Positions 528 to 39,190 of a DNA stretch of 64,000 bases are shown in pieces. This stretch comes from Annona cherimola. Its lineage: Eukaryota; Streptophyta; Magnoliopsida; Magnoliales; Annonaceae. The stretch covers positions 806,001 through 870,000 of the forward strand of contig CM059971.1 of NCBI GenBank assembly GCA_030490835.1. The letters are read 5' to 3'. Made by a program: the position numbers and the translations under genes. The first letter of the stretch is position 1, and every line of letters starts with the position of its first letter. The notes under the pieces were generated by a model. That model saw nothing but the letters and a program-made list of their open reading frames with translations. It had not been told where the DNA came from and made no database searches.

Positions 528-688
528 TTAAAAGAGCGGGAACTTGCGTTGGTGGACTTTTTTCTTCCAAAGGATGATAACAGCGCATAGAGCAATACAT
601 GTCACAAGAAGTACAAGTACGACGATGGCAGCAACAATCTTCCTTGGAAGCCTATGCTCGCCCTGTGAAACAGCTGCACCTGCGAACA
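528..688 (-). CDS. Transmembrane/juxtamembrane exon of the receptor-kinase gene
   Basis: On the minus strand an acceptor (..TTGGCAG) at 689-690 opens a frame in phase with the preceding malectin exon. It encodes a short linker, a hydrophobic segment of about 22 residues (IVAAIVVLVLLVTCIALCAV) and a basic stop-transfer WKKK. This is the expected membrane anchor between malectin and kinase domains. An alternative in-phase acceptor nine nt downstream would also work. The 3' end is uncertain: the frame meets TAA at 528-530, and I see no convincing donor before it. So the exon may end earlier, or this may be another lesion. Positions 1-527 contain no recognisable kinase sequence and are treated as intron or flank. 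Confidence 0.65.
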
Positions 689-868: not shown

Positions 869-1524
869 TGGATTCTACAGAAATGGCTGAGACTAGTACA
901 CCATATTCTCCTCGTCTAGGAATTGCTTGTGTCCCTTTTCCAGCCCAAAAGAAATTGATCTCTAGTGTGTGATTTGTCACAGTAGCCATAAAGCTCTTAA
1001 CAATAGGCTTTCCAGGTCCACCAGCTTCATCTTCAATGTTGAAATCTTTCAATACCAACTTGCCCTGGACCAATTAAGACATCAAGAGATCCATGCCACT
1101 GAACCGAACCAAAACCAAGGAAGGAAAATTTAAGTGAGATCAAATACCTGAATGTACACATCAAAAAAACGTCTTGCGAGGCCGGTGAATGCACTTGTAT
1201 TTGTGAAGATTATTTCTGCGAAGTGTAACCTCACTTCGTAATCTCTGTTATTCAGATGTAGCCCGTAGTAAGTGAGAGAAATGGGAGAAGTGCGAGCTGT
1301 GGTATACAACTCTGGGTTGGCTGTGGCAATAGGGCTGGTGTTTGTAGCAATGTTGGGGATATCTCTGCCTTGATTGTCCCCCATAAAGTTGCCGGTAGTG
1401 CTTAATGCCCAGTTTTGATTTAAAGAGAAAAATGAAGCGCCTTGTGGAGTGTTATCTGCATCATATGCGTTGCTTCCGACCACAGTCTCCCTACCTCCGC
1501 AGTTTATGAATAATGAATCCTGAT
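869..1524 (-). CDS. Malectin-domain exons of the receptor-kinase gene (1148-1524 and 869-1064)
   Basis: The first exon (377 nt) begins after an acceptor at 1525-1526 and encodes the hallmark DSLFINCGG start, an SLTYYGLHL stretch, the YEVRLHFAEI core and RRFFDVYIQ. It ends at a GT donor at 1146-1147. The second exon (196 nt) continues with GKLVLKDFNI and a closing beta-sandwich segment (TLEINFFWAGKGT), then a GTAAGC donor at 867-868. No internal stops occur. Family knowledge: this is the single malectin domain of LRR-VIII-2 receptor kinases, an extracellular carbohydrate-binding-like fold between LRRs and membrane. The exon sizes and the QG junction match the family. Well supported. Confidence 0.88.
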
Positions 1525-3250: not shown

Positions 3251-5760
3251 ATACAGTCCATATACTGTGATGCCCATTTGATCATAAATAGGAAATTTAT
3301 CACATCCATTGTATTTAGAATTATTTGCCTTATTAGCCTACCAATTTTCATCGAAATTAAACGTGTACAAGCCCCATCCTAAAATGATACAAAATTAATG
3401 TAATAAAATATTTTAACGTAAATATCAAGTTTAAAGTAGTATTTTCAACATCTAAACTGTCTAACATATATTTTTTATGTGGATAAATAAATGCATAATT
3501 ATTATTACATTTTAATATATGTGAGACCCATTTTGCATTTGGATAAGATTTAAGTGCATTTGGACTACATTAGAAAATGAGACCTCCTTGATCATAAACT
3601 TAACATCTACTTTGTCCATTGTATTTAAAATCATTTACTTTAAAAGCGAGCTAATTTTATTCAAATCAAACGTGTATATGGTCCTATCTTAAAATAGTAC
3701 AAAATCAATATAATAAAATAATTTAACGTAAATATCAATTAAAATTATATTTTTCAGCATTTAAACTATCTAAAGTATTGTATATGGTTTCGCTTCTATG
3801 AAACCTTTTTTTATGTAACCCCCTCTATTTTTAATATTTTGATAGTTGATAGAAAATTCACTCAATTTATTATATTTAGCATCATTTATAGTATCTTGGA
3901 AATCCTTTTATTTGTCCAATCTCGTTACATACGGGACCCATAATCAATGTAATAAAATAATTCAATATTAAATATCAATTTTAAAGTCGTATTTTCAACA
4001 CCTAAACCGTCTAAAATATCATTTCTATATAGATGAATGATATTATAAAGTATTATTACATTTCAATACATGTGTAAATGAATTTTAAACGTTTTTCACA
4101 ATTTACACATAAATATATATTTTTCAATAAATATGACCCATAAATACACTTGATCGGGATAAAACTTAGTCTCCTAAATAAACAAATGATGTTAAATACA
4201 ATAAATGAATTAAATTTTTCATTAATGATCAAAATCTTAAAAATTATAGGGGTTACATAGCTTCACTTCTATATAAGAACTAATATGCATTATATATATA
4301 TAGAGAGAGAGAGAGTTGTTCCGGTACTGCACCGGAACAGCGGTGCAGTTGCCCAAAAATGGGCCCCACATGATCATGAAATCATGATCTACTCCACCCA
4401 TTATATTTAGAATAATGTATTCTATTATCATACCAATTTTCATCCCAATCAAATATGTATATGGGCCTCATCTGAAAATGGTACAAATCCAACATAATAA
4501 AATAGTTTAATGTAAATAACAACTTTAAAGTATCTGATTGGGATGAAAATTGGTATGGTAATAGAATACATTATTCTAAATGCAATGGGTGGAGTAGATT
4601 ATGATTTGATGATCATGTGAGGCCCATTTCAGCGACGCTGCACCTGAATATATTCCATATATATATATATATATATATATATTAGTGACCCATATAACAA
4701 CTCAATTTTAAAATATCAATGATTGATGTAAAATTCGATCCATTCATTGTATTTAATATCATTTATTTACTTAGGAGATTAAGTTTTATCTAAATTAAGT
4801 ACGTACATGGCCATATTTGCTCGAAAAAATATATTCATGTGTAAATTATTAAAAACATTTAGGTCCATTTACATATATATTCATATATAAATTATTAAAA
4901 ACGTTTAGATCCATTTTACATGTATATTATAATATAATAATACTTTATGAAATCATTAATCTACATAATAGTAATATTTCAGATGTTAAAACGTTACATT
5001 AAAGTCAATATTTTAGCCTTAAATTATTTTATTACATTGATTTCACATATTTATAGATGAGAACCATATAAAGTGAAACTAAGTAAATGACAGAGTTGTC
5101 ATGATAATATGAATGATGTTAAACACAATGGATGGAGTGAATTTTTCATCCACCATCAAGATATTAAAAATGAATGAGGGTTACATAGAAAGGAGTTTCG
5201 TAGAAACAAGACCGTATATATACATAGAGGGCCTTGCTTTTATGTAACCAAATTACATAGAAGCGGTCTAATATAACCTTCTCAAATTTCAAGTTATTGA
5301 TTCTTAATGGAAAATCTAATTCATTCATTGTATTTAACACTATTTGTTTAGCTAAGAAAACAAGTTTTATCGAAATCAAGTATGTGCATAGACCACATTT
5401 AATCAAAAATATATATTCATGTGTAAATCATGAAAAACACTTACATCCATTGACACGTGTATTAAAATATAATAATACTTTATAGAATAATTTATCTACA
5501 TGGTAGCGATATTTTAAATGGTTTAAATGTTGAAAAAATTACTTTAAAATTGATATTTTAGCATTAAACTATTTTACTATGTTAATTTTACACATTTATA
5601 GATAAAGACTCATATAAAGTGAAACTAAACAAATAAAAAAGTTTTCAAAATACTACAAATGATGTTACATGAATTGAGTAGATTATCTATTAACCATCAA
5701 GATTTTAAATATAGAAGGGGTTATATAGAAAAAAGGTTTCATATAAGCGAAACTGATATA
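3250..5760. repeat. Mosaic of degenerate AT-rich fold-back (MITE-like) elements
   Basis: The same core recurs at least five times in both orientations: a 'cattgtatttaa..atcattta' motif, 'gtaataaaataatttaacgtaaatatca', and 'tttaaactgtctaa'. Examples are 3285-3530, 3600-3780 and 3840-4140 in one orientation, and 4700-5160 and 5280-5760 in the other. Several copies end in TGTAACCCCC or GGGGTTACATA, which act as inverted termini (near 3815 and 4250; near 5180 and 5240; near 5715). Related single copies occur at 57595-57850 and 63437-64000. No coding capacity is seen. The element class is not determined because clean TSDs were not found. Confidence 0.6.
4315..4650. mobile_element. Palindromic MITE inserted in a TA microsatellite (copy 1)
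   Basis: Almost the entire segment is an inverted repeat: a left arm running from GGGCCCCACATGATCATG through ATTTTCATCCCAATCA, and a right arm reading its reverse complement, separated by a loop of about 90 bp. The termini carry CGGTGCAG or CGCTGCAC motifs. The flanks are TATATATA plus AGAGAG on the left and (TA)n on the right. A second, inverted copy lies at 62180-62532, also inside (TA)n. Family knowledge: Micron-type MITEs target TA microsatellites, and this matches by behaviour, not by proven sequence homology. Confidence 0.75.
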
Positions 5761-5804: not shown

Positions 5805-6610
5805 ACATATGATCTTGTTATGACTAAGTAATGACTTAGCTTACATCAAGAAACCTATTTTAAAAAAAAAAAAATTTTGCTTCATACACTTATTTATTTA
5901 AGTATATTTAATATATAAACTAAATTTTGTCATTTTTGGATGTGTATATTTTTTAAAGATGTTTAAACACAAGGGCATTTTAGCCATTTTCAATAGTTGA
6001 AAATAGCTAAAATACCCTTATGTTTAAAAATCTAAAAAATATATACATATATTCAAAAATAGTAAAAGTTGGTTGATATGTTAAATAAATCTACATTAAC
6101 AAGTTTATGAGGAAAAAAATGAAAGATCCTGTTAGCTCAGACTAAGCAAATGTTCCACTTAACTCATCTCAAAAACCCATTTACAACAAATTTTTTTTAT
6201 TTTTTCTTCATACACTTATTTATCTAAATGTATTTATCATATAAACTAAGTTTTACCATTTTGATACGTATATATATTTTTAAAAATTTTTAAAGATAAG
6301 AGTATTTCAAATACATATATACATATAAATGTTTTAAAATCATAAAAAAATAAATACACATACCTAAAATAGTAAAACTTAGTTTATATATTAAATACAT
6401 TTAGATAAACAAATGTATGAAGAAAAAAGCATAAAAAATTATTGTAAACGAGTTTTTTGAAGTGGCTTAAACAAAGTTTTTACTTAGCCCAAGCTAATAG
6501 GATCACTCCTCGGGAAAAAAGTAAATAAGAAAAAACTTTTTGAATAGTTTTTTTTTTTTTTATATGGGCTACGTATGTCATTACTTAGACTAGGCTACCA
6601 GGATCATTTT
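5805..6610. repeat. Nested fold-back elements with ACTAAG-type termini
   Basis: Outer inverted motifs GATCTTGTTATGACTAAGTA (about 5811) and TACTTAGACTAGGCTACCAGGATC (about 6580) face each other. Inner ones are GATCCTGTTAGCTCAGACTAAG (about 6126) and CTTAGCCCAAGCTAATAGGATC (about 6477). Between them are mirrored AT-rich arms sharing 'cttcatacacttatttat' and its complement. The same core recurs at 53840-54215 and 55885-56145. It is a non-coding fold-back family of uncertain superfamily. It lies immediately left of the LINE insertion. Confidence 0.55.
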
Positions 6611-6702
6611 TCAGTCTACACTCTAGAACATGCACTAACCTTGCCAGTAAGAGTTTCTATCTTACTGCCGGTCCCAAGCCCGGGAAAAAAGCGAGGGTTG
6701 GC

Positions 6703-9700
6703 ATGTCAGGCTGGCAGCCGGTGCCATTAAAAATCACCGCCACATCTCTTATAGATTCTGATAATATATTAAAAATTGTTAATGCTAGGGCGTTTCCTGT
6801 AAGCGACGCGCTGCAGCAGAGCCCGGCTGTAGTGAGAAATGAGCAAGGGTTGCTAGGGCGTTTCCCCAGAAGCGACGCGCTACATCGGAGCCCGGATGTA
6901 GTGAGAAATGGGCAAGGGTTGCTAGGGAGTCTCTCCGGAAGCGACGCGCCACAACAACATCCGGTTGTGACGAAAAGTCAACAAAGGTTCCCATGCCTTT
7001 ATGGACGTGGTTTAGGGAAGAAGGTGATATCAAAACGCAAGGTCCGTTTTGCCTCGTTGAATGTTGGGACTCTTTCAGGGAAAAGTATGGAAGTAGTAGA
7101 TGTTATGAGAAGGAGAAAAATTAATATAGCATGCCTTCAAGAGACTAGGTGGAAAGGAGAGAAGGCTAAAGAGATTAATGGATTCAAATTATGGTATATA
7201 GGACAGGATGATAATAGAAATGGTGTAGGGATAATAGTAGATAACAATTTCATAAATAAAGTTGTAGATGTCAATAAAGTAAATGATAGAATTATTCAAA
7301 TAAAACTTGTATTAGGTGCAGAGGTTTTAAATGTGATTAGTGCTTATGCACCACAAGTAGGATTAGATGATAGAATCAAGAAACAATTTTGGGATGACTT
7401 AGATAGTATTATGCAAAGAATATCTAACCAAGAAAAAGTTGTGATAGGTGGAGATCTAAATGGACATGTAGGAAAAGAGAAGGTAGGATATGAGAGAAGT
7501 CATGGGGGCTTCGGTTTTGGAATAAGGAACGAAATGGGGAATGCTATTTTGGACTTTGCTATAGCATATGATTTGGTTATAGCAAATACCTTATTTCAAA
7601 AGCGAGATGAACACTTAATAACTTTTAAGAGTGGGACCAATTCTAGCCAAATAGATTTCTTCCTTATAAGAAAATTGGATAGATCCCTTTGTATAAATTG
7701 TAAAGTTATCCCAGGTGAGAGCTTAGCTATGCAGCATAGATTATTAGTGATGGATATATATACACAAAAAGAGTCAACAAAAACGAAAGGCAATGTAATT
7801 CCAAAAATTAAATGGTGGAATTTAAAAGGAAACAACATAGAACTTTTTAGAAAAAGAATAATAGAAGAAGTAAAATGGGACACACAAGAAGATGGAGTAG
7901 AATCGATGTGGGATAAAATGACAACTAACATAAAAGAAGTAGGACAAAGTATTATAGGTGTATATAAAAATCGTAGATCCTCACATAGAGAAACTTGGTG
8001 GTGGAATGAAGATGTTCAAAAAGCTATAAATGATAAACAAGAAAATTTTAAAACATGGCAGGAAAATAAAAATGATACAAACTTACAACAATACAAACTA
8101 TAAAAAAAAGCTACTAAAAGGATTATTAGTGATGCTAAACACAAAGCTTATGAGAACCTATATGACAGATTAGGAACTAGACAAGGTGAAAAGGATATTT
8201 TTAAGTTGGCTAAATTAAGAGAAAATAAGGGCAAAGATTTAACACATGTTAGATGTATTAAAAGTGAGGACCAAAGAGTTCTAGTCAAAGATGATCATAT
8301 TAAGGAAAGATGGAAAACTTATTTTTATAGTTTACTAAATGATACCCCACATGAACAATTAACATTATATGTTAATCTAAATAGGGAAGAAAATAGGAAT
8401 ATCAGTTATTTCACAAAAATTTGAATATCTGAAGTAAAGGAAGCTTTAAGGAAAATGAAAACAGGAAAAGCTTTAGGCCCAGATAATATACCAATTGAGG
8501 CATGGAAGTGCATGGGAGATGTAGGTGCAACAAGGTTAACAAATCTTTTTAACAAGATTATAAAAACGAAGGTAATGCCAAATGAATGGAGGAAAAGCGT
8601 TATAGTTCCAATTTATAAAAATAAGGGAGATATTCAAAATTGTGCAAATTATCGTGGAATAAAATTAATGAGTCATACTATGAAATTATGGGAAAGAGTA
8701 ATTGAACATAGACTAAGACGGGAAACTAATATATCTGAAAATCAATTTGGTTTTATGCCAGGAAGATCAACTATTGAAGCTATTTTCTTACTTAGACAAC
8801 TATTTGAAAAGTATAGAGAGAAGAAAAAGAACTTATACATGATTTTTATTGATTTAGAAAAAGCTTATGATCGAGTACCAAGAAAGTTAATATGGCAAGT
8901 GATGAGGAAAAAAGGAATTAATGACAGATACATTGATATTATTAAAGATATGTATGAGGGGGCTGTTACAAATGTGAGAGCTATTAGTGGAGATACTAAT
9001 GTCTTCCCAGTTAAAATAGGTTTACATCAAGGCTCAGCCTTGAGTCCCTACCTTTTTACCTTAGTAATAGATGAAATTACTAGACATCTCCAAGAAGAAG
9101 TACCTTGGTGTATGTTATTTGCAGATGACATTGTTCTAATAGATGAAAGTAAAGAAGGACTAAATTTAAAATTGAATAGGTGGGTAGATGCTCTAGAATC
9201 TAATGGTTTTAGAATTAGTCGTACAAAAACTGAATATATGAAATGTAATTTTAATAATAGTGAGAACCCGGATGAGGAGCCAATTAAGATTTTAGATCAA
9301 ACAGTAACAAAAACTAATCACTTTAGGTACTTAGGATCAATAGTTCAAGAGAACGGGGAAATTGAGAAAGATATAATACATAGAATTCAAGCAGGATGGA
9401 AGAAATGGAGAAGTGCGTCAGGAATTTTATGCGACCGTCGAGTCCCAGTCAAATTAAAAGGAAAATTTTATAAGACTGCGATTAGACCAGCTATGCTTTA
9501 TGGGGCAGAATGTTGGGTAGTTAAAGAGCAACATATACGAAAAATGAGTGTAGCGGAAATGAGAATGTTAAGGTGGATGAGTGGCAAAACAAGAAAAGAT
9601 AAAATTAGGAATGAAATAATTCGAGAAAACTTAAAAGTGAGACCAATTTATGATAAAATGAGAGAAACTAGATTAAGATGGTTTGGTCATGTTAAAAGGA

Positions 9701-9891
9701 GGCCTGAAGTAGCACCGGTTAGGAAAACAGAGTTTATCAAAGTAGAAGGTGGTAGAAGAATGAGAGGAAGACCCAAAAAAACATGGATGGAAGTAATTAA
9801 ACAAGATTTTAAAATATTACATATTACTGAAAATTTAGTCTTAAATCGCCAAGAATGGCGAAACAGAATCCATGCAGCCGACCCCACATAG
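6703..9891 (+). pseudogene. RTE LINE polyprotein (endonuclease + reverse transcriptase), two in-frame stops
   Basis: One frame runs from ATG 6703 to TAG at 9889-9891 (about 1,060 codons), broken only by TAA at 8101-8103 and TGA at 8422-8424. The endonuclease part (about 7040-7780) shows NVGTL, QETRWKG, GGDLNGHVG and SQIDFF. The reverse transcriptase part (from about 8440) shows GPDNIPIEAWK, the FMPGRSTIEA fingers motif, FIDLEKAYDRV, GLHQGSALSPYLF and the catalytic FADD at 9118-9129. The protein would nick target DNA and copy its own RNA by target-primed reverse transcription. The two stops make this copy unable to encode the full protein, but domains on either side are otherwise intact. The TGA is consistent with a CGA to TGA transition. 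Confidence 0.9.
6785..6990 (+). repeat. Three imperfect about 69-bp tandem repeats at the 5' end of the LINE ORF
   Basis: The units share GCGTTTCC...AGCGACGCGC...GTAGTGAGAAAT..GCAAGGGTTGCTAGG and start near 6789, 6857 and 6926. They lie within the N-terminal 100 codons, so the encoded peptide has a repeated SDALxxSPxVVRNxQGLLG motif. Small indels shift the spacing slightly between units. The units may be 5' UTR monomers (promoter repeats) read through by the open frame, with the true start downstream. This is inference. Confidence 0.7.
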
Positions 9892-10105: not shown

Positions 10106-12552
10106 ATTGCGACTTTTGCATGTCTGTGCTTTCTCCGCCTTCCAAGCAATTAGAGTAGCTACTGCTTCATCATTAGAATTTATCCAGGCTTACAAAAGAT
10201 ATAAAAGATCGTCTTTAAAACTTGCGCAAACAAATGGATTTGAGGATGTGATTCAGACTTACGGACTATTCTCCTTGGAAGAGTGACTTGCAAATAGATT
10301 TCTGTTAAGATATAAATATCGTATCAAATCACCAGATGAACAAACATCAATAAACCAAGGAAAAAGACAAAATTCATCGCAATTTTTTCATTGGTAATAC
10401 TCACATGTTCCCCAGTTGACATTCGGATGGCATTGACTCTTCAGGTGTAAAATTATTGTAAGAAAGGTCACTGCATTTTAGAATGGCATGCAATTTAGAA
10501 CTTCCAAGAGATGACTTTCTTTCAGTGATGAAGACAGACGTGATATTCATGTTGATGCTACACCACTTGAAAAGCAAAAATATGGCCATCATTCTTACAT
10601 CGGATTCAGGCCTTCGTTCGTGTAATCCAGTTCAATTGTTCTTTTCAACATGTCCGGCAAACAAGGTAAGAAAAAAGAATAGAGTAAAAGAAAGAAAGGA
10701 AAATCCCTTGTATGCCCACTTGCCGGAAGTGGGACCGGCATCCATTACACTAGCAGAACCTAGAAAAGGATCTACGAACCATTATTGAAAGAATTTTATT
10801 TGAAACATTTCAAAAGCAAAATTTCAGAAGTCAAAGATAAACAGGTTGTTGGTATGTGTTCTTTCTGTCTTGGTATTATATCTACATCAAGAAACCAGAG
10901 GCTCAGAATCAACTATCATGCGATGAAGTTATTATTGGCGAAAATTTTAAGGAGAAGCTACAAGAACAAAATTGACCATGAAATGTAAAGGAATCAAATC
11001 AGAAGCTGTGACTCTGAAACAGAGCTTACACATTTTTGTTTGTTTTCCAAATCCAAGGGGGTAAACGTCCAGTAAGCCTATTCTTGGTTAAGTACCCGAA
11101 AAGAACCCATCATTTGGTCGTCATAGTCATCAAAGATGGAAAAATGCTGATAATTATTATCCTTAAGGGATTTTCTTACAAGAAGTCTAGGTCTTCCAGT
11201 TTCTGTAAGGAGCTTGGAATATTGCCTGTTAAGTTGTTGAAACCGAGATCTCTGCCGGTGAAACAGGGTAAGATGGAAAATAATATCTATGAGTGAGGGG
11301 GGGGGAAAACTCCATTTTCAATCTGTGTATCAGTGGAGGAAAAGTTAAGGATATTAGACAATGAATACTCATGAAAACACCAATGAAATACATAAACCAG
11401 ACATTAATCTGTGATACCAAACCGCAGTTGCAGATGATGTGTAGGACTTGAGCAATCTAATCCAATGCATTATTCATATTCTACTAGATCTCGAAAGACA
11501 CTCTATAGTAGATCTCTAATTTTTTTTCCATTACATGAGATAAATTGTACAAAACCACAGTTGCAGATAAAATGTAGGATTTGAGCAATCTAATGCAATC
11601 CATAGCATGACAATTTCAACGGGATCTTTTTTTTTTTTCATTTTAAACTTGACAAATCTAAACCATTTATATTCATCCATGTGTGTTTAGTTATGATTCC
11701 GAAAATCACATGTTTAAAACTACATATTTATTTGCAAAAGCTGGAAAATTCTCTCTCTCTTTTTTTTTTTTATAAAGCTGGAAAATTTTCTTAGTTATAT
11801 ATTTAAACCAAATGTTATCAAATAGTTACAACATCTACATTTCTAATAAAAGTGATTTCGGACATAATAAATATATGTCCAATAATGAACATTATACACG
11901 GCTTAAATTTTGAAAAAATATTTTAAAAAACTTTTGAATGACCGATGGAGAAAATATAAACGATCTCAACACTGCTCTTATTAACATGTTTCTCAGGACA
12001 TGCTGCAGTCCGTCAAATTGAAATCCCCAGCCACTGAATGCAGGTTATTTCATCATTGCCGTTAACAAACATGAACCAATCAAATTGCTTCTTTTGAACC
12101 TTTTCCAGCACATCAAGACATTTCCAAGCCAATTGGGTGGGTGTCTACGTCAAAAATCATTTATTTTAGATTTTTGCAGAATCTAAGAATAACTCACAGG
12201 ATTTTCAAATCATTCATATCATCGAAATCTTCTGGTATATTTCCATTAATTAGGCAGTTCCTCAGTATCCTGCACAACGAATTATTTTTTCAGTACACTA
12301 AAGCCTTTGATGCACAGATGATGAAACATAAACTTTCCATCATTCTACTCACAAAATTTTCAAAGGTGTCATTTGATGCACATCAGGAAAATTTGACTGC
12401 ATTCCAGATAAGTCACTTATCCTCCTAAAAACATTGGAAACAAATCGTTGATTTTTTTTTTATGATAAAAACAAATCGTTGATTGATTGTAAAGAACACA
12501 TATAGAGCCCGAAATAGCAAAGTAAAAAACACTCACAGGTTAGATAAGTTTC
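10106..12552 (-). CDS. Receptor-kinase exons: last LRRs and LRR-malectin linker (seven exons)
   Basis: Exons in transcription order are 12537-12552 (tail of the gypsy-split exon), 12353-12424 (72 nt, RISDLSGMQSNFPD), 12198-12269 (72 nt, ILRNCLINGNIPED), 11180-11251 (72 nt, DLGFNNLTGNIPSS), 11030-11095 (66 nt, YLTKNRLTGRLPPW), 10405-10470 (66 nt, DLSYNNFTPEES) and 10106-10161 (56 nt, linker into the malectin exon). Donors are all GTGAGT, GTAAG or close variants, and acceptors are AG except before 11030-11095. There the two bases at 11096-11097 read GG on the coding strand. The motif LxxNxLxGxIP is visible in most repeats. Introns here are short and AT-rich and hold nothing else recognisable, including 11252-12197. 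Confidence 0.85.
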
Positions 12553-12979
12553 TGATAGGAAACAGCTTATATTGCGCAACTCTGATTGGATTTGATTCCT
12601 GCTGATCGCTTTAATCCGATTCAAGCGGGGTTCCTCTTATCGGAGGGAACATTTCCGTGGAATACAAGAAAAATGTAAATTCGTCTTCTCTAAAAATATA
12701 TTCGAACAAGTTTTTATATCCAGCCTATGCTAGGACACGACCCTTCTAACTAACATGCACGGACATGCACGGCCCCTGACAGAAGCCGTTAGCTGCTCCC
12801 ATCATAGGTTCAGTCTCTCTGGAGGCCTGAGTTGCCCACGTGGCCGGAGTGTGCGCCGTTGATTACTTGTTTGCTGAAGCAACTCTCCTTCCCGCACTTG
12901 CTCTCCATTCTGCACCTGCTGTGGCTCCTCGTCAGCTCTTACTAGTGGCTCAATCCCTCCAGTGTCAGTGGTCATATCA
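12553..12979 (-). repeat. 3' LTR of the gypsy element, overlapping the end of pol
   Basis: Starts TGATAGGAAAC on the + strand and ends GTGGTCATATCA. The pol frame ends with a stop at 12802-12804, so about 175 bp of the LTR is coding. This overlap of pol with the LTR is also seen in the partial ORF in the other LTR. Confidence 0.93.
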
Positions 12980-15900
12980 TTCCCGCCGGGTTGAGAACCA
13001 ACTTGGTCCTCCATGTTGAAATGAGGGAAGAGTGAGCGGATTTGATTCTTAGCCTCCCAGGTATCATCCGAAGCAGTCAGCCCTTTCCAACGAATGCGGA
13101 TTTCCGTAATGGCATCCGGCCCGCGAAGTACCTGACGTTCAGCAAGCACCCGCTCTGGTTCCATTGTAAGTTCATCAAATTGATCCGTGGGTGGAAGAGT
13201 AGGCAATGAAGGAGACTCACTTAAGCTCCTTTTCAACAGAGACACATGAAAAGTGGGATGAATCTTGCAACCAACTAGCAGATCCAGTTTATAAGCAACT
13301 GCACCAATCCGTTCCAAAACCTTAAAGGGTCCATAAAACCGAGGAGAGAGTTTGTGAGTATGTTGGGACCTGGCTGAAACCTGTCGAAAAGGTTGCAATT
13401 TGAGGTACACCCAGTCACCCGGCTAGAATTCAGATTCTCGACGATGCTTATCTGCCATATGCTTCATACGATTTTGGGCCTGAATCAAATTGTCTCACAG
13501 CAATCGCAATGTTTGGTCACGAGTAGACAGCCACGCATCCACATCAGCTATGTTAGTTGATCCAGACTCATACACCGGAATTGTAGGGGGAGTATAGCCA
13601 TATAAAGCCTTGAAGGGAGACATGCCTGTAGCTGTGTGATATGCAGAATTGTACCAATATTCGGACCACGGCAGAAGATCAAGCTAACGCCGAGGGTGCT
13701 GCAAGGTGAAGCAACGGAGATATGTCTCAAGGGTGCGATTCGTGACTTCAGTTTGTCCATCCGATTGTGGATGATAAGCTGTGGTATGCTTGAGCCTAAC
13801 CCCCTGTTCTTTAAATATGGCCTGCCAAAAGTGACTGAGAAAGATGGGATCACGGTCAGAAATGAGTGACTTTGGTAGACCATGAAGTTTGACAATGTCA
13901 GTGATGAAAACCTTCGCAACATCAGGAGCCGAATAAGGATGGCCCAAGGCGGAGAAATGAGCGTATTTGGAGAGGCGATCCACAACCACTAAAATGACAG
14001 ACTTCCCTTTAGAGTTGGGTAGCCCTTTGATAAAGTCAAGAGTAACTTCTTCCGAAAGACAATTAGGTAAAGGGATAGGCTGTAACAGCCCAGCTGGGCA
14101 CATGGTGGAATATTTGACACGATTACATGTGTCACAAGCAGCTATCATGTGTTTGATGTGGTCACGCATACCTGGCCAATAAAAATGTTCGTTGATCCGC
14201 TTAAAGGTTCGGAAAACTCCTGCATGTCCACCCAATATCGAAGCATGGAAATAATCAAGTACCTTAGGAATAAGGTGGCTATCGGAAGGTAACACCACGC
14301 GACCCTTGTAATATAGCAAGCCATTATGCAAGCTATAGTGAGGAGGACCAGGTTGAACACCCTCCAGTTGCTGTCGGATGGCGGACAAGGAGGCAGACTC
14401 CCTGTTCTGCTGCAAAGCTTCATGCCATAAAGGGCTGACAATGGTAGACATGCTCAATGCTGCTGAAACCATTTGACGGGACAAGGCGTCCGCTGCTCCA
14501 TTTGCAGTTCCCTTCTTGTACTCCACGGTAAAGTTATATCCCATGAGTTTGCTCATCCATTTTTGCTGCTCGGGAGTTAAAATTCGCTGCTTCAAAAGAT
14601 GCCTTAGACTGTTATGATCCGAACGGACAACAAACGGGTGGCCAAGCAAGTACGGGCGCTATTTTTTGACAGCAAGCACAATCGCCTTGAGTTCCTGTTC
14701 ATACACAGATTGACCATGATTTGCCGAAGATAATGCCTTGCTGAAGAAAGCAACGGGATGGTTCTGCTGACTTAACACTGCACCGACTCCCTGACCTGAA
14801 GCATCACATTCGACGATAAAAGGAACAGAAAAATCTGGAGGCTGCAAAATTGGCGGTTGACAAAGAGCTGACTTGAGTTGGTTGAATGCGTCCTCTGCAG
14901 ATGGAGACCACTGAAACTCATTCTTCTTAAGCAATTTAGTTAAAGGCAAGACCATCAATCTGTAATGCCGAATGAAACGACGGTAATAGCCAGATAGTCC
15001 CAGAAACCCTCTCAACTGTTTCACTGTTTTAAGTCGAGGCCAATGTGCGATACAATGAAGCTTGTCTGGATCGGCTTCTATTCCCCGAGCTGAAATTAAA
15101 TGGCCTAAATACCCTATCTGTGAAAGGCCAAATTCGCATTTCTTGCGATTAGTGAGAAGATGGTGTTGCTGTAGACAGGATAAGGCCGAATGAAGGTGAG
15201 CAAGGTGAGCTTCCCAAGAAGGGTTGTATACCAGAATATCATCAAAGAAAACCAAAATGAACTTCCGAAGGAAAGGCCCAAAGATTCCATTCATAAGACT
15301 TTGAAAGGTAGCGGGTACATTGGATAATCCAAAGGGCATGACTAGATATTCAAACTGACCGTGATGCGTTCTGAAAGCAGTTTTATTAATGTCTGCAGGA
15401 TGCATGCAGATTTGGTGATAGCCCGAACGCAAATTGAATTTCGAAAAAACAGAGGCTCCTGTAATCTCATCAAGCAACTCGTCAATAACTGGGATGGGGA
15501 ACTTATCTTTTACTGTAATCTCATTCAAGGCCCGATAGTCCACACACATCCTCCAAGAACTATCCTTCTTCTTAACCAGTAATACCGGGGCAGAAAATGG
15601 ACTAGTGCTAGGCTGTATCCACCCTTTTTGTAACAACTCAGTTACTTGAGATTCAATCTCTTGTTTATGGTGATAAGGATACCTGTAGGGCCGTATGGAA
15701 GCAGGAGCGGCATTTGGAAGCAACTCAATGTGGTGATTAACTTCTCGCAGCGGAGGCAACCCGTGAGGCTCAGCAAACACAGCCTCAAATTTGTTTAAAA
15801 GCTGATCAAGATCTGCCACTCGTCCGCTGGAATCGCTACCCATGAGCTGTAGAGATTCCTTACCCCCTTGTAACATGAACACTTGGCACGAAGATGCATG

Positions 15901-16659
15901 CAATTTCATTAGTTGTCGGCAAGAAGCCAACTGAATTTCTGTGGGTTTCAACCCTTGCAAGTGATACCGAACCCCCTTCAAAGTGAAACTCATGACTCGT
16001 TTGACCCAATCAGATGTAATTACACCTAAACTAGATAGCCATGCCACCCCGAGGATCACATCAGCCCCTCCCAATGTCAAGGGAAACAGATCTACAAAAT
16101 GACTGCCCCCTTCAATCATCACCTCCACATTCCTGCAAATGCCTTGTCCAGCTAAGTACGTGCCGTCACCCTTCATGACGCGAAACCTGCTGGTATGCTG
16201 GGATATCAATCCCAACCGCCCCAAAAGCTGGCGATGGATAAAATTATGGGTGCTTCCAGAATCAACCATGATAACCACCTCCATCTCACAGATGATACCT
16301 TTAATCTTTAAAAGTTGATATGCATCCATTCCAGCCAATGCCTGTAAAGAAATGCAACACAACTCTGGTTCGAGCAATTTGTCGGGCTCCCTTCCTGATT
16401 CGATATTTCCTTGTTCATCGGAGGAACTGTCTTGCCACTCTTGCTGGAGGACACACAGCTGTTTGTTGGCGCAAATATGCCCTTTAACAAACTTCTCATC
16501 ACAAGTATAGCACAACCCTTTCTTGCGACGGTTTTGTAATTGTTCCCATGACAGTCGCTTAATAGGAACACTCGCTCTAGACACATCCAATTTGGGAGGC
16601 TCCCCTACCTTGGGAATGAATTTCTCGATTGGTCGAGAAACAGGGTCAAGTCGCCCCTT
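12802..16659 (-). pseudogene. Gypsy pol polyprotein: zinc knuckle, protease, RT, RNase H, integrase, chromodomain
   Basis: A single minus-strand frame carries, in order, a CCHC knuckle (CYTCDEKFVKGHIC, about 16480-16525), an aspartic protease motif VDSGSTHNF (about 16240-16270), RT with MPFGLSN and the catalytic FFDDILVY (about 15225-15250), RNase H starting VECDASGQGVG, an integrase HHCC zinc finger (H..H..CDTCNRVK, about 14110-14230), a DDE core (LDFIKG, SDRDP, QTEVTNR) and a chromodomain-like tail (RWKGL..DDTWE, about 13060-13095). It is broken by in-frame stops at 14659-14661, 13684-13686, 13495-13497 and 13423-13425. All are explicable as C-to-T or G-to-A changes in Trp, Arg or Gln codons. 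The element cannot encode a full polyprotein. Confidence 0.92.
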
Positions 16660-17570
16660 TCAAGCAGATTTTCCCACGAGTCGACCACTGGATTTGTTCC
16701 TCATCATTTTATTATTGAAGCATTTAGCCCATCCAATTGCTTCTGCTAATGTAGTTGGTCTCATCATCCTCACCTCGGACCCCAACTCCTCCCGAAGTCC
16801 TGCAATGAAGGCTCCCACTAATGCCTTCTCCTTCCATCCTCGAGCACGGTTGGTTAAACTCTCAAACTCTTCCAAGTATGTCTCTAATCTGCCCTGTTGA
16901 TAAACCGAGCTGATGGCCTCATGTACATCCACTGATTACCCTCCTCAAAACGCAGCCTAATGCTTTTGCAAAAACGCCGCCATGAATCCACTTCCCCACG
17001 ACGCCTAGCCCAATAATACCACTGAATCGCCGCTCCTTCGAGGTGATAGGAAGCCACCCGTACCTTATCTTCTTCAGAGGTGTTTGTCAATTCAAAATAG
17101 ATTTGGGCCCAGAGAAGCCACGAGTTAGGATCACCTGAAGAAAACACTGGGAAATCCAACCTTCCCTGTTGGAAGTTGCCGGGAAAAAGTGGCGGTGTAT
17201 TCCTGCGACTCTCCTCTCTTCGCTCTACCTGTTTCCTTTGATGATGCCACCTGCCAGCACGACCCTCGAGTCTCATCCGGCCTATTCCTCTATCCTCCGC
17301 AGAAGATGAATCCACACTGGATAAAGAGGCCTCACTATTCGATGACCAGCTGGACAATTTTTTCTTATCCTTACTAGAATCGAATAGCAGATTTATACCC
17401 GTCTGAAGATCTTTGAGTTGCTGGATCACGCTCGACATCTCCTTTTCGAGAGACGAAACTCGACGATTCCGGCCGCCCCTTGAATGCTCACTCGCAGATC
17501 CAGATCCGCTTTCCACCGTCGCGTTATGCTGTTCAATCCCCGCAGATGTTCCTTCGGCCATGTGTATCAC
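16660..17570 (-). pseudogene. Gypsy gag (retrotransposon capsid), frameshifted
   Basis: The frame from ATG 17568-17570 runs through a serine-rich N-terminus and the conserved retrotrans_gag core: FPVFSSGDPNSWLLWAQIYF, then VRVASYHLEGAAIQWY. Near 16930-16940 the homologous sequence moves to another frame (YLEEFESLTNRARGW, FIAGLREELGSEVR), so a 1-nt indel disrupts it. It then meets an in-frame TGA at 16660-16662, after which the zinc-knuckle region follows in the same frame as pol. Gag would form the virus-like particle that packages element RNA. Confidence 0.85.
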
Positions 17571-17623
17571 TGGAACTGCCCTGCGTGATCGTCGCCCGCG
17601 TTGCGCCAGCCTGACCGATCTGA

Positions 17624-17635
17624 GCTCTGATACCA
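17624..17635 (-). other. Primer-binding site, initiator tRNA-Met type
   Basis: Reads TGGTATCAGAGC on the minus strand, three nt inside the 5' LTR. It is complementary to the 3' end of plant initiator tRNA-Met, the usual primer for minus-strand synthesis in these elements. Confidence 0.93.
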
Positions 17636-17638
17636 GAT

Positions 17639-18062
17639 TGATAGGAAACAGCTTATATTGCGCAACTCTGATTGGATTTGATTCCCGCTGATCGCTTTAA
17701 TCCGATTCAAGCGGGGTTCCTCTTATCGGAGGGAACATTTCCGAATTCTTGGAATACAAGAAAAATGTAAATTCGTCTTCTCTAAAAATATATTCGAACA
17801 AGTTTTTATATCCAGCCTATGCTAGGACACGACCCTTCTAACTAACATGCACGGCCCTTGACAAAAGCCGTTAGCTGCTCCCCACCATAAGTTCAGTCTC
17901 TCTGGAGGCCTGAGTTGCCCACGTGGCCGGAGTGTGCGCCGTTGATTACTTGTTTGCTGAAGCAACTCTCCTTCCCGCACTTGCTCTCCATTCTGCACCT
18001 GCTGTGGCTCCTCGTCAGCTCTTACTAGTGGCTCAATCCCTCCAGTATCAGTGGTCATATCA
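17639..18062 (-). repeat. 5' LTR of the gypsy element
   Basis: Direct repeat of 12553-12979. The copy retains a 6-nt AATTCT segment near 17743 absent from the other LTR and lacks a 10-nt duplication present there. The left part on the + strand (17822-18058) encodes in reverse the same pol C-terminus as the 3' LTR, because the ORF extends into the LTR. Confidence 0.93.
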
Positions 18063-18067
18063 GTTTC

Positions 18068-18123
18068 TTAATGCAGAAATGCCCAAAGGAATTGGACCTT
18101 CCAATGAGGAGCCCTGGATTCGC
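18068..18123 (-). CDS. Upstream part of the LRR exon split by the gypsy element
   Basis: After an acceptor at 18124-18125 the frame reads RIQGSSLEGPIPLGISALRN and continues across the insertion into 12552-12537 (LSNL) before a GTGAGT donor at 12531-12536. With one TSD copy removed, 56 + 16 = 72 nt, exactly the length of the neighbouring LRR exons and in phase with both. This shows the insertion is within coding sequence, not an intron. Confidence 0.9.
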
Positions 18124-18204: not shown

Positions 18205-19618
18205 AAAATTCGTAAACGCCTCCAGTTTTGGATGAAGTTTGGTAGTTTGCCAGAGAAGTTGTTGTCACTTATCCGACTACACACGACAGCAGGTGAGTGT
18301 TGATGCTTCAACTTGGGTAACTCGAATAATTAGCAACATAAAAATAATTGTAAGACGCAAAAACGAATTCTACTTACAAATCAACCAAATTGGTTAGCTT
18401 GGACATCTCCACGGGCAATTCACTGGTCAAATTGTTCGGAGAAAGAGAACTGTACACATAATGAGGTAAGCATGTATCATCAATCGGTTCGCTCTAATGT
18501 AGATGTAGTTTTTTTTTTTTTTCAAATTCTTCGCGCTTGATCTAAAGGGTCTTCTCCAAAGAATCCTCGACATCTGCTAGGTAGACCTACACCAATCAAT
18601 GATTTGGTTGCGGCTATTTTTAACAGATTAATAAGTAAGGCAATTTTGTGGGCACATTTTCTGTTACTATATAAAAAGCACGCGAGGAAAGCTACAAAAG
18701 CATTACGCACTATCAAGATTGATCAAGTTTCCAAACTCGGGTGGGATAGGCCCTGAGAATCCATTTGCCTCTAAGTTCCTGCACATGCCCATGTATTCCA
18801 TCATTTACGAAAGGCTACACTCCATCAAAAATTAACGAAAGAGAAGATTAGAAATGATAGTGGCTACAAAACAAAGGGCTACATACAGTTTTTGCAGCGT
18901 GGTGATGTTCCCAATTTCTTTGGGGATCGGACCAGAGAGTCGGTTCGCCATTAGATTTCTGCGAATTGACCATGCCAAAAAAAATTAGAGAGCAATTGGA
19001 TGAAATCATTTCAGAAGACATTTTGTTTGCTTCAACTGACTAGCAAATTAAAGTCGCGAAAGCCGAACAGAAGTGACTTACATTTGCTGCAATGGCAATG
19101 TAGCCCATTCGGGGGGAATTGAACCAGTTAGGAGATTGCGGGTGAGATCACTGCACAAATTGTAGGACATCATCCACCAAATCGTAAGACATCATCCACA
19201 AGGCACAATGGTCCTCAAGAAGCGAGTGTTATCATGTATCGTAGGAGTAGTCTTCTTACATGTTGTAGAGGAAGGGTAGCCTCGCAAGTTCTGATGGAAG
19301 GACCCCAGAAAGGTTCTGAGACTTGAGAGTTCTGCATCATATCCAATCTCAAATCAATTAATTTTTCCCATTTTTCAATAAAATAGATGTCAAAACATCC
19401 AAACGAATTTATGAACAAATATAAAAGAAGAAACTGGTGGAAGAAGCCTCACATGCTGACGACATGACAGCGATTCTCGGCAGTGCAATTGCATAACAAC
19501 TCATTCTCGAAGCCTTCCGTTGGTTCTTTAATGGTCCATCCACCTTCTCCTCTGCCAGGATCTGCACTGAAGTTCCAGTCCTTCCCCAATTTTGATGCAA
19601 TTAATTTAAGAGTATCGA
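18205..19618 (-). CDS. Receptor-kinase N-terminal and first LRR exons (seven exons, one frameshifted)
   Basis: 19453-19618 encodes an N-terminal cap with a WNFSADPGRGEGGW and LLCNCTAENRCHVVSM pattern typical of the family's N-glycosylated, Cys-bearing cap; its 5' limit is the acceptor at 19619-19620. Then come 19260-19331 (72 nt, SQNLSGVLPSEL), 19082-19150 (69 nt, RNLLTGSIPPEW), 18887-18958 (72 nt, ANRLSGPIPKEI), 18707-18778 (72 nt, ANGFSGPIPPEF), 18377-18449 (73 nt) and 18205-18276 (72 nt, DNNFSGKLPNFI). The 73-nt exon has one extra G in AGTGGAATTGCC (about 18420). It throws the frame off the LRR pattern and creates a TGA in the same exon. Short introns separate the exons. Confidence 0.87.
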
Positions 19619-20189
19619 CTGGTGCAATTCCAACATTAGAAATGCAATCATAAACACGAATTTGATATAATCCAAACAAAAGACTATCCAATTGGGAGAG
19701 GCGAAGCAAGTAGGCTTGCAAGAATGATCTGAAGCAATTCAAGTTACAAATTCAGATAGAACATTTAGATCACCTGGAAATTTATTTTAAAGTAAAATTT
19801 TACAAGAAATTGTTAGTAATAACATTATAAGAAGGTATTGAGAATATAATACGAAACATGATTATAGTTTTAGTATTCTTTTTGCATATGCTCAACAAAG
19901 AGCACAGAATTGTATTTTTAACGATTACGTTTAACAAACATAAATCTAATGGGATCGAATGGCAGCGGATTTTGACAATATTCATTAATGAAATTAGGTC
20001 CTGAGATCGTCAGATAGAATTTTAAAAGTAGTCGCGCCAGATAAAGGCATATGTCAAAGAGTGAAAATAGGTTATAGGGTTCACCAAGTTATTCAACTTG
20101 CGCATCCACGAAAGTAAGTATTGAATCATTACCGCATAAAAAAATCTACATTTTAATCATCGATGCATCACCCCAAACAAAATGTTTTC
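19619..20189. other. Region 5' of the receptor-kinase gene, no signal-peptide exon recognised
   Basis: AT-rich sequence. The minus-strand frame of the N-terminal exon stays open to about 19742, but the residues upstream of the acceptor do not look like a signal peptide or family sequence. No ATG-led signal peptide could be placed with confidence before the tandem array begins. Confidence 0.5.
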
Positions 20190-22610
20190 TATATATTTTT
20201 AGAAAATAAAATATTCATTTTTGTAAGCCCGCGGGACACATGCTTATTTTTATAAAAAAAAATATTCATTTTTTGAGTCCCGTGGGACATTTTTATATTT
20301 TAAAAAAACAATAAATTCATTTTTAGAGACCCGCAGGACACATTTAATTTCTTAAAAAACAAAATATTCATTTTTGGACGCCCGCGGGACAAATATATAT
20401 TTTTATAAAAATAAAATATTCATTCTTTGAGGCCCGTGGGACATTTATATATTTTAAAAAGCAAAACATTCATATTCGAAAGCCCGTAGGACACATATAT
20501 ATTTTTATAAAACAAAATATTCATTTTTGGACGCCGCGGGAAACATATATATTTTTATAAAAATAAAATATTCATTTTTTGAGGCCCGTGAGACATTTAT
20601 ATATTTTTAAAAATAAAATATTCATTTTTGGAGGCCCGTGAGACACATATATATTTTTATAAAACATTATATTTATTTTTGGACGCCCGCGGGACACATA
20701 TATATTTTTATAAAAATAAAATATTCATTTTTTGAGGAGCGTGGGACATTTATATATTTTATAAAAACAATACATTCATTTTTGGAGGCCAGCAGGACAC
20801 ATATATATTTTTATAAAATAAAATATTCATTTTTGAACGCTCGCGGGACATTTATATATTTTTATAAAAACAATACATTCAATTTTGGAGGCCCGTGGAA
20901 CACATATATATATTTTTATAAAACATTATATTCATTTTTGGACGCCCGCGGGACACGTATATATTTTTATAAAAACAAAATATTCATTTTTTGAGGCTTG
21001 TGGGACATTTATATATTTTATAAAAATAATACATTCATTTTTGGAGGCCCGCGGGACACATTTAAATTTTTATAAAACATTATATTCATTTTTGGACGCC
21101 CGCACGACACGTATATATTTTTATAAAAACAAAATATTGATTTTTTGAGGTCCGTGGGACATTTATATATTTTATAAAAATAATACATTCATTTTTGGAG
21201 GCTCGCGGGACACATTTAAATTTTTATAAAATATTATATTCATTTTTGAACGCTCGCGGGACACGTATATATTTTTATAAAAACAAAATATTCATTTTTT
21301 GAATTTTGTGAGACATTTATATATTTTTAAAAAATAATACATTCATTTTTTTAGAGGCCCGCGGGACACATTTAAATTTAAAAAGAAAAATATTCATTTT
21401 TGGAAGCCCGCGGGACACATATATATTTTTATAAAAATAAAATATTCATTCTTTGAGGCCTGTGGGACATTTATACATTTTAAAAAGCAAAACATTCATA
21501 TTTGGAGGCCCTTGGAACACATATATATTTTCATAAAATAAAATATTCATTTTTGGACGCCCGCGGGACACATAAATATTTTTATAAAAATAAAATATTT
21601 ATTCTTTGAGGCCCGTGGGACATTTATATATTTTAAAAAGCAAAACATTCATATTTGGAGGCCCGTGGGACACATATATTTTTTTATAAAATAAATTATT
21701 CATTTTTGGATGCCCGCGGGACACATATATTTTTATAAAAACAAAATATTCATTTTTTGAGGCCTGTGGGACATTTATATATTTTAAAAAACAAAACATT
21801 CATTTTTGAAGGCCCGTGGAACATATATATATTTTTATAAAATATTATATTCATTTTTGGACGTCCGCGGGACACATAAATATTTTTATAAAAATAAAAT
21901 ATTCATTCTTTGAGGCCCGTGGGACATTTATATATTTTAAAAAGCAAAACATTCATATTTGGAGGCCCGTGGGACACATATATTTTTTTATAAAATAAAT
22001 TATTCATTTTTGGATGCCCGCGGGACACATATATTTTTATAAAAATAAAATATTCATTTTTTGAGGTCCGTGGGACATTTATATATTTTAAAAAACAAAA
22101 CATTCATTTTTGGAGACCCATGGGACACATATATATTTTTATAAAACAAAATATTCATTTTTGGACGCCCGCGGGACACGTATATATTTTTATAAAAATA
22201 AAATATTTATTTTGTGAGGCCCGTGGGACGCATATATATATATTTTTTAAATTAACAAAACATTCATTTTTGAAGGCCCGCGGGATACATCTATATTTTT
22301 AGAAAACAAAATATTCATTTTTGGACACCCGCGGGACACATATATTTTTATAAAAATAAAATATTCATTTTTTAGGGCCATGGGACACATATATATTTTA
22401 AATTAACAAGACATTCATTTTTGGAGGCCCGCAGGACACACATATATTTTTAGAAAATAAAATATTCATTTTTGGACGTCCGCGGGACACGTATATATTT
22501 TTATAAAAACAAAATATTCATTTTTTGAGACCCGTGGGACACATATATATTTTAAAAAAATAAAACATTCATTTTTGGAGGCCCGCGGGATACATGATTA
22601 TTTTTACAAA
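20190..22610. repeat. AT-rich minisatellite array, about 52-bp unit with a CCGCGG box, about 46 units
   Basis: Each unit has a GC box (GCCCGCGGGACAC or variants such as GCCCGTGGGACAT) followed by TATATATTTTTATAAAA, a TATTCATTTTTGGA block and the next box. Spacing between boxes is about 50-54 bp (for example near 20942, 20993, 21045, 21097, 21148, 21200, 21250). Three unit variants alternate between about 20680 and 21330, giving a higher-order period of about 155 bp. Further right, a roughly 304-bp block is duplicated (compare 21599-21799 with 21903-22103). Open frames across it are by-products of the repeat. It separates the receptor-kinase 5' end from the citrate synthase 3' end. Confidence 0.9.
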
Positions 22611-23189
22611 AATTCACCCAATATTATCTTTAATTTTGTTGAATTGAATTAATTTGAATTGAAGCTCCATGAAAAATGAATTAATCAAATAATCCAACTT
22701 ACTTTTTAGAATAAAGTTATGGTACAAATATGTATTTCAATAACACCCATGGCCAATAATTCAAAAAATTATTTTTAATGTGAAAAATAAATAAAAATTG
22801 GTCAATTAATTTGAAATGAAGATTATAAAAATGAAAAAATATTAGATATTTTAAATTAAGTATGCTCATTATTCATTTTAGAGCACTTCGGTTGTGGGTG
22901 CTTTGGTATTACTCAAATATATACATGAAATGTTACGAGGAAAAATGATAAAATTAACTAGGTTTGAAATAAATTATTCCCATTTTTACAAACAAAAATG
23001 CTTAAATTTATATTGAGCTATTTTCAAAAATCTAACAATTTTAATTATATTGAGCTTTGAATGAAATTAGAGTTAGCTAATTTTCTATCCTTCCAAGTGA
23101 ATAAATTCTCGTCTAGGGAAGAAATAGACTGACGGGTTGAAAAATAAAAGACGTATTTTATTTTGCGACAATGCCTATTTAGTTTTTAG
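22611..23189. other. Intergenic AT-rich stretch downstream of citrate synthase
   Basis: No coding or RNA gene seen. It should contain the citrate synthase 3' UTR and polyadenylation region (minus strand, left of 23190). It also has an AATTGAATT-rich patch around 22630-22680. Confidence 0.5.
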
Positions 23190-36627
<13,438 letters not shown>

Positions 36628-38090: not shown

Positions 38091-39190
38091 AAATATGAAG
38101 GAAAATTTTTCAATTAAAATTTTTTTACTCTTTATAACTATTTTATTTTTTTAATTATTTTTTCACATTTCCTATATAAATAACAGTATTTTTCAATTAT
38201 TTCTACACAAATACCCATACAATTACCATATTTATTTTAACTTTATTCTCTTCACACCTCATTATTATCTCTATCATATCACATCATTTTCTATCAACTT
38301 GACAACTTCTACTCTAAGGGTGCGTTTGTTTAGGATAAAAAAATGTCAACTAAAACTTTTCACTCTCCATAATTACTCTATTTTTTAATTATTTTTTCAC
38401 ATTTTTCTACACAAACTACCCTACTTTTCAATCATTTCTACACAACTACCCATACAACTAACCTATCTATTTTAATTTTATTCTCTTTACTCCTCATCAT
38501 TACTCCTATTATATCACATCATTTTTTATTGATTTGACAACTTCTATTCCAAAAACTTTTCATCAAAAGTTTTACCTCCAATCAAACACACCCTGAAAAG
38601 TTTTTATCAAAAAGTGTTACCTCCAACCAAACGTACCCTTGATAAAAAGTTTTGGAGAATAAAAATTGTCATATGATATGATATAATAGGGATAACGATG
38701 TGATATGATAGGGATAATGATGAGTAGTAAAGAGGATAAAGTTAAAATAGATAGGTTAGTTGTATTGATAGTTGTGTAAAAATGATTAAAAAAGTAGGGT
38801 GGTTATATAGAAAAATGTAAAAAATAATTAAAAAATATGATAGTTGTGGAAAATGACAAGTTTTAGATTGAAAAGTTTTAACTTAGGGTATGTTTGGTAA
38901 TAAGTAGAAGTTGTCAAGTTAAAACTTTTCAATCTCCACAATAACCCTATTTTTTAATCATTTCTTCACATTTTTCTATACAATTACCCTACTTTTCAAT
39001 CATTTCTACACAACTATCAATACAACTAACCTATCTATTTTAATTTTATCCTATTTATTCTTCATCATTACCCCTATAATATCACATCATTTGACAACTT
39101 CTACTCTCTATAACTTTCCATCAAAAGTTTTATCCATTCCCAAACACACCTTTAGGCATTTTTTATCAATTGCCAAACACACCCTAGGTG
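38090..39190. repeat. Cluster of Tourist-like MITEs, including one nested in another
   Basis: At least four related copies occur. One from about 38318 (GGGTGCGTTTG, after TAA) to 38593 (CAAACACACCC) interrupts an older copy whose parts lie at about 38100-38314 and 38595-38637. An inverted copy occupies about 38638-38888, and another about 38891-39186. The shared core is a purine/pyrimidine-asymmetric AT-rich stretch with 'ctacacaactacccatacaactaacctat'. Termini GGGTGTGTTTGG and its complement and the 3-bp TAA target fit PIF/Harbinger (Tourist) MITEs. Confidence 0.75.

Follow-up and report, generated by a model that had tools for sequence, protein, structure and literature searches.

A sense-oriented chromodomain Ty3/gypsy retrotransposon within a single LRR exon of an LRR-malectin receptor gene in Annona cherimola

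The 64-kb stretch of Annona cherimola DNA analysed here (64,000 nucleotides, hereafter the window) carries on its minus strand a gene that was traced from exon E2 to exon E18 and that comprises an N-cap exon, the LRR-type exons E3 to E14, two small exons, and then two exons for malectin and one for the transmembrane segment. Its parts are:

19453 to 19618, minus strand: exon E2, N-cap, with a conserved Cys changed to Gly (splice sites and homology)
19331-19260, 19150-19082, 18958-18887, 18778-18707, 18449-18378 and 18276-18205, minus strand: LRR exons E3 to E8 (splice sites and homology)
18068 to 18123, minus strand: first 56 nt of receptor exon E9 (join and homology)
12537 to 12552, minus strand: last 16 nt of receptor exon E9, one GTTTC copy included (join and homology)
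12353 to 12424, minus strand: LRR exon E10, 72 nt (splice sites and homology)
12198 to 12269, minus strand: LRR exon E11, 72 nt (splice sites and homology)
11180 to 11251, minus strand: LRR exon E12, 72 nt (splice sites and homology)
11030 to 11095, minus strand: LRR exon E13, 66 nt, acceptor CGG (start placed by homology)
10405 to 10470, minus strand: exon E14, 66 nt (splice sites and homology)
10106 to 10301, minus strand: exons E15a (10301-10263) and E15b (10161-10106) (splice sites and homology)
869 to 1524, minus strand: malectin exons E16 (1524-1148) and E17 (1064-869) (Pfam and homology)
548 to 679, minus strand: transmembrane exon E18 (homology; 3' end provisional)

Genes of the LRR-malectin receptor kinase family encode one LRR per exon of ~72 nt in phase 2. 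All boundaries of E3 to E14 are in phase 2 at both ends, and nine of these 12 exons, E9 counted, are 72 nt long (E4 has 69 nt, E13 and E14 have 66 nt). Canonical GT...AG borders are present in 16 of 17 introns, the element excluded, the exception being the 84-nt intron before E13, whose acceptor (11096-11097, minus strand) reads CGG instead of CAG. The rejoined coding sequence from E2 to E18 amounts to 1,816 nt, or 605 codons without a stop, with one base assumed from E1 and E13 counted despite its non-AG acceptor. The LRR ectodomain is homologous over its full length to At1g07650-like LRR-malectin receptor kinases, and a malectin domain (68.1 bits, Pfam, ORF 1133-1549) and a transmembrane segment follow downstream of the LRRs. 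The gene thus resembles the At1g07650/At3g14840 LRR-malectin kinases, which we take to be LRR subfamily VIII, in its N-cap, LRRs, malectin domain, transmembrane segment and full-length homology, but differs from them in that a kinase was not found in the window, nor exon 1 in 19619-30000, the relatives being compared by their proteins only. One report assigns malectin-like domains in Amborella to LRR subfamilies I and VIII-1 (PMC5179525). In the search for a signal-peptide exon 1, even the best hit in 19619-30000 was unconvincing (E 0.23, 11 residues long). A 2.4-kb minisatellite (20190-22612; a 51-bp unit repeated ~47 times, with a higher-order period of 153 bp) lies upstream of E2 at the expected location of exon 1, and a retroelement labelled LINE-type from its domains (6589-9891, plus strand; endonuclease ORF 6589-8100, reverse transcriptase ORF 8425-9888) occupies part of the 8.6-kb intron that separates E15b from E16.

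The two parts of E9 are separated by an LTR retrotransposon and its flanking duplication:

18063 to 18067: target-site duplication GTTTC, element's 5' side (flank comparison)
12553 to 18062, minus strand: Ty3/gypsy chromodomain-bearing LTR retrotransposon, 5,510 bp (LTR pair and Pfam domains)
17639 to 18062, minus strand: 5' LTR, 424 nt (LTR comparison)
17624 to 17635, minus strand: primer binding site TGGTATCAGAGC (read by eye)
16887 to 17696, minus strand: gag ORF, entering from the LTR (Retrotrans_gag)
14662 to 16659, minus strand: protease, reverse transcriptase (RT) and RNase H ORF, with an in-frame stop at its end (RVP_2, RVT_1, RT_RNaseH_2)
13687 to 14658, minus strand: ORF for the end of RNase H and integrase, in the pol frame, stop at its end (Integrase_H2C2, rve)
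12805 to 13422, minus strand: ORF for the integrase C-terminus and chromodomain, in the pol frame, running into the 3' LTR (SH3_Tf2-1, Chromo)
12553 to 12979, minus strand: 3' LTR, 427 nt (LTR comparison)
12548 to 12552: target-site duplication GTTTC, element's 3' side (flank comparison)

Element and receptor gene have the same sense, both on the minus strand. Each LTR starts with TG and ends with CA. Aligned to each other, the two copies show six substitutions over 417 ungapped columns (1.4%), every one a transition, as well as three indels; with substitution rates of 1.3e-8, 7e-9 and 3e-9 this divergence places the insertion at ~0.55, 1.0 or 2.4 My ago, respectively. The primer binding site at 17635-17624 is presumably of the tRNA-Met type. 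The protease, the RT, RNase H, both the zinc finger and the core of integrase, and the chromodomain score above their Pfam cut-offs; Pfam also identifies a Tf2-type SH3 domain, and the domains follow the gypsy order on the minus strand. The gag domain (Retrotrans_gag) falls slightly below its cut-off (23.7 against 24.1 bits), and the chromodomain, located at the pol C-terminus, passes narrowly (25.2 against 25.1 bits). One survey reports a chromodomain in 94% of chromoviruses and in none of the other groups of plant LTR elements (PMC6317226). The best 120 of 7,254 matches to the RT were all plant or other gypsy relatives and included no named chromovirus clade, whole-query matches being mostly 57-62% identical. 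Stop codons interrupt the single frame of the pol ORFs, and the gag ORF is read in a different frame, so this copy of the element is broken.

The insertion site can be resolved to the base. The GTTTC duplication is perfect and directly abuts the exact LTR ends, and with one copy removed the minus-strand segments 18123-18068 (56 nt) and 12552-12537 (16 nt) join to exactly 72 nt. The rejoined E9 is in phase 2, lies between the 72-nt exons 18276-18205 and 12424-12353, and is bordered by AG upstream and GT downstream. For comparison, the best 120 of 3,198 and the best 120 of 5,600 matches were pooled into 224 different proteins, and a hidden Markov model (HMM) of E8 to E10 was built from the 217 of these with at least 68 of the 72 positions filled, the window sequence being excluded. 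Against this model the exact join with one duplication copy scored 113.1 bits, joins shorter by 3 and 6 nt scored 103.4 and 100.7 bits, and six frame-breaking, truncated or unspliced versions (both duplication copies, no copy, two joins out of frame, the first half by itself and a read-through into the LTR) scored only 70.8-74.1 bits. The 24 positions of E9 correspond to 24 contiguous alignment columns, all of them filled in 217 of the 224 homologues, and therefore none of the 224 has an extra residue inside E9; identity to the join among the 217 reaches at most 19/24, with a median of 15/24 and a minimum of 10/24. A sequence-only reading of the locus had described a gypsy element inside a single 72-nt LRR exon, a 72-nt join in phase with its neighbours once one GTTTC is removed, and hence an insertion in coding sequence, and had named an alignment in which the join fails to match orthologous exons as grounds for refutation. 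The LTRs, the GTTTC pair and the 56 + 16 nt split bear out the first of these, the join was reproduced to the base, the fit of the rejoined exon to the homologue profile (113.1 versus 70.8-74.1 bits) places the insertion in coding sequence, and at the protein level the E8-E10 profile shows no such mismatch.

Translated without splicing, the E9 frame meets a TGA formed by the first LTR bases directly after the duplication, so that translation from the start of E2 would yield only 219 residues; the predicted truncation falls within the LRRs, before the malectin domain and the membrane. The earlier claim that the insertion disrupts the receptor is thus upheld by a broken frame with an in-frame TGA at the 5' LTR edge, and so is its suggestion that skipping the 72-nt exon preserves the frame, the E8-E10 join being open. 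An allele with presence/absence variation, also suggested in that reading, is conceivable. Because both boundaries of every exon from E3 to E14 are in phase 2, any subset of them could be skipped in frame. Retrotransposon insertions in plant genes can be spliced around, as in maize waxy, and the Annona case resembles these in that in-frame skipping over the inserted element would be possible. A TATA-like motif occurs in each LTR (17810 and 12718), as do poly(A)-like words in the sense of the gene, all of them plain word matches, and the motif at 12718 in the 3' LTR is directed toward the downstream half of the gene. The default expectation is that transcripts end early in the 5' LTR, and it is possible that a promoter in the LTR drives the lower half of the gene. 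A 3' splice site born from the LTR (the terminal CA joined to the G of the duplication, leaving an in-frame 15-nt remnant) was considered and rejected; it scored -2.9, a value equalled or exceeded by 83% of 2,963 minus-strand AGs, on a small and crude matrix derived from the gene's own acceptors, on which the native E9 and E10 acceptors score -1.6 and -0.2 and the CGG of E13 scores 3.2.

The closest proteins among the matches listed are predictions from Asimina triloba (P0002) and Magnolia sinica (P0001). In a tree of 36 proteins picked from 225 rows, the window pairs with P0002 (100/100) and P0001 joins this pair (100/100), and terminal branches after the Asimina split measure 0.079 for the window and 0.14 for Asimina; window and Asimina proteins are 84% identical. 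Exon content varies among these gene-model predictions. Isoform X1 of the Magnolia gene (P0001) has all the exons, whereas isoform X2 (P0021) is without E7-E11, and P0002, seen as a protein alone, is without E6 and E8-E10 in the 224-protein alignment. Occupancy in that alignment marks E13 of P0002 as present, yet only 7 of 22 residues match, and read directly the protein passes from E12 to E14; missing-exon counts from the alignment are thus approximate, and other misplacements may exist. With that reservation, E9 is missing in four of 224 homologues, P0021 and P0002 included. P0002 also contains two LRRs resembling E12, and its model continues through the intron preceding E2, so the Asimina locus looks irregular or poorly annotated.

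Damage to the Annona gene extends beyond the element. The E13 acceptor is changed, as given above, and after the transmembrane segment (679-510, minus strand) the reading frame departs from that of Asimina, a comparison with one Asimina gene model. Whether the Asimina C-terminus proves that a donor after E18 has been lost was also considered, and the idea was dropped: reading through an intact AGGTAAG donor yields the same last residues, and therefore only the frame difference is kept. The window sequence after E18, ACAGATAAGC, is one base away from a donor. In the N-cap, the E2 cysteine is present in all 205 reference proteins with a residue at that position and is glycine in the window. We counted breaks at conserved alignment columns using 221 reference proteins (the 224 minus P0001, P0002 and P0021), a comparison that favours the references because they themselves define the conserved columns. 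At 95% conservation the window breaks 11 of 125 columns, P0001 4 of 125 and P0002 12 of 103 filled, and a proportion at least equal to that of the window is reached by two of the 221 references; at 90% the counts are 19/181, 12/181 and 20/146, with eight such references. At seven of the window's 11 breaks at 95%, Asimina carries the identical residue; four of these are common to Asimina alone (one in E12, three in E16) and three are common to Asimina and Magnolia (two in E16, one in E17). The E12 break is doubtful as a common change because only one of the two Asimina E12-like copies carries it. The E8 break is common to the window and Magnolia with a gap in Asimina, that in E10 is specific to the window and also faces a gap in Asimina, and those in E2 (the N-cap cysteine) and E7 are window-specific with Asimina unchanged. 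The insertion, by LTR divergence, is younger than the divergence from Asimina. As conserved-position breaks are common to Asimina, the pattern suggests that relaxed constraint, or a changed role, began before the Asimina split and before the insertion.

The designation of the gene as a receptor kinase in the sequence-only reading is unproven, because LRR, malectin and transmembrane parts were found in the window but no kinase, and the predicted Asimina and Magnolia proteins likewise lack one. Kinase portions of three and then six proteins used as queries gave no convincing match in the 64-kb window; the best (E 0.27, with a range of 0.27-3.1 across the six queries) covers 31 residues at 5665-5757 on the plus strand, opposite to the receptor. 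This catalytic-loop-like candidate has no neighbouring kinase pieces and was taken as chance or a tiny remnant. The window extends only 547 nt past E18. Both the Asimina and the Magnolia models terminate just past the membrane, and eight of 120 proteins (best 120 of 5,600 matches, judged by eye), the two best matches included, have no kinase Pfam label. A kinase-less receptor lineage is possible, and the absence of a kinase domain from the models of the nearest relatives raises a question of receptor evolution in Magnoliales.

We consider it probable, at roughly three in four, that a sense insertion of a chromovirus-type Ty3/gypsy element with a 5-bp target-site duplication in E9 of this LRR-malectin gene produced a likely null allele of a gene whose constraint had already been relaxed. 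The element would have entered E9 in sense, duplicating 5 bp; transcripts entering the 5' LTR would terminate there or decay, and the resulting allele would be null or give only a short LRR fragment. The target gene may by then have been under relaxed constraint and possibly have been without a linked kinase, in which case the insertion would be one step of loss more than a functional switch. As regards prior decay, the splice site could have been lost after the insertion, the breaks common to Asimina could reflect a changed function, and the terminal branch of the window (0.079) is short, which speaks against reading too much into the signs of decay; as regards the missing kinase, that domain and exon 1 may lie beyond the sequence examined. 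In sum, the coding insertion, the frame break and the in-frame skip of the original interpretation stand, while the additional damage at the E13 acceptor, the tail and the conserved positions qualifies it.

That the insertion was instead the primary cause of death, with the gene functional until then and every other lesion later, we regard as somewhat unlikely. Exonic insertions of the chromovirus LORE1 serve as mutations in Lotus, according to two reports (PMC2832683, PMC5180183), and the 605 stop-free codons outside the element would fit a late death. Since only 0.3-0.4 stops are expected since the insertion under neutrality, however, these open codons neither support nor refute a long decay, and seven of the 11 conserved-position breaks, one of them doubtful, are common to Asimina, where the model likewise omits E13 and has no kinase at its end. 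Tolerance of the insertion appears less likely still: the element would be removed with a 5,780-nt intron (E8 donor 18204 to E10 acceptor 12425), or a longer one, to leave a shorter in-frame receptor. The phase-2 exons, the open E8-E10 join, and relatives without E9 by alignment (P0021 lacking E7-E11, P0002 lacking E6 and E8-E10 and, when read directly, E13) are compatible with such an outcome, but the exon losses of the relatives are gene-model predictions, the element lies in sense and each of its LTRs carries TATA-like and poly(A)-like motifs, and the acceptor at the LTR edge is weak by the crude matrix (-2.9). A skipped-exon transcript would moreover still meet the changed E13 acceptor and the changed tail after E18. 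A kinase-less LRR-malectin receptor whose LRR exons are freely skipped, so that the 5.5-kb element is passed over and a shorter receptor still works, seems very improbable. An assembly artefact or chimeric join is scarcely credible in view of the perfect 5-bp duplication at the exact LTR ends and of an exon restored to the base.

Insertion with partial loss of constraint, as preferred here, is an exonic insertion of an ordinary kind in a well defined case. Chromodomain retrotransposons are suspected of favouring heterochromatin, and the locus offers a base-resolved and roughly datable example of one in coding sequence. Modular phase-2 LRR exons could buffer such insertions: if transcripts skip the element, LRR receptors would have a built-in tolerance; if not, this is an ordinary knocked-out gene copy. 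A close parallel is LORE1, a Lotus japonicus chromovirus of the Reina clade with a C-terminal chromodomain that inserts into genes, including the LRR receptor kinase gene LjFls2, in which 31 of 40 insertion lines are exonic (PMC2832683, PMC5180183). Both cases involve a gypsy element with a C-terminal chromodomain in an exon of an LRR receptor gene, but LORE1 is reported to be active and the LjFls2 insertions come from a mutagenesis population, whereas the Annona copy is natural and aged, with stops in its pol frame. Titles and the opening parts of abstracts in the literature searched held no prior account of the Annona insertion, which does not prove that there is none. Elsewhere in the window, large stretches at 3781-5218, 5875-6427 and 38338-38879 are 65-75% identical to their own reverse complement, and an ORF at 23368-23910 on the minus strand encodes the C-terminal part of a citrate synthase (Pfam).
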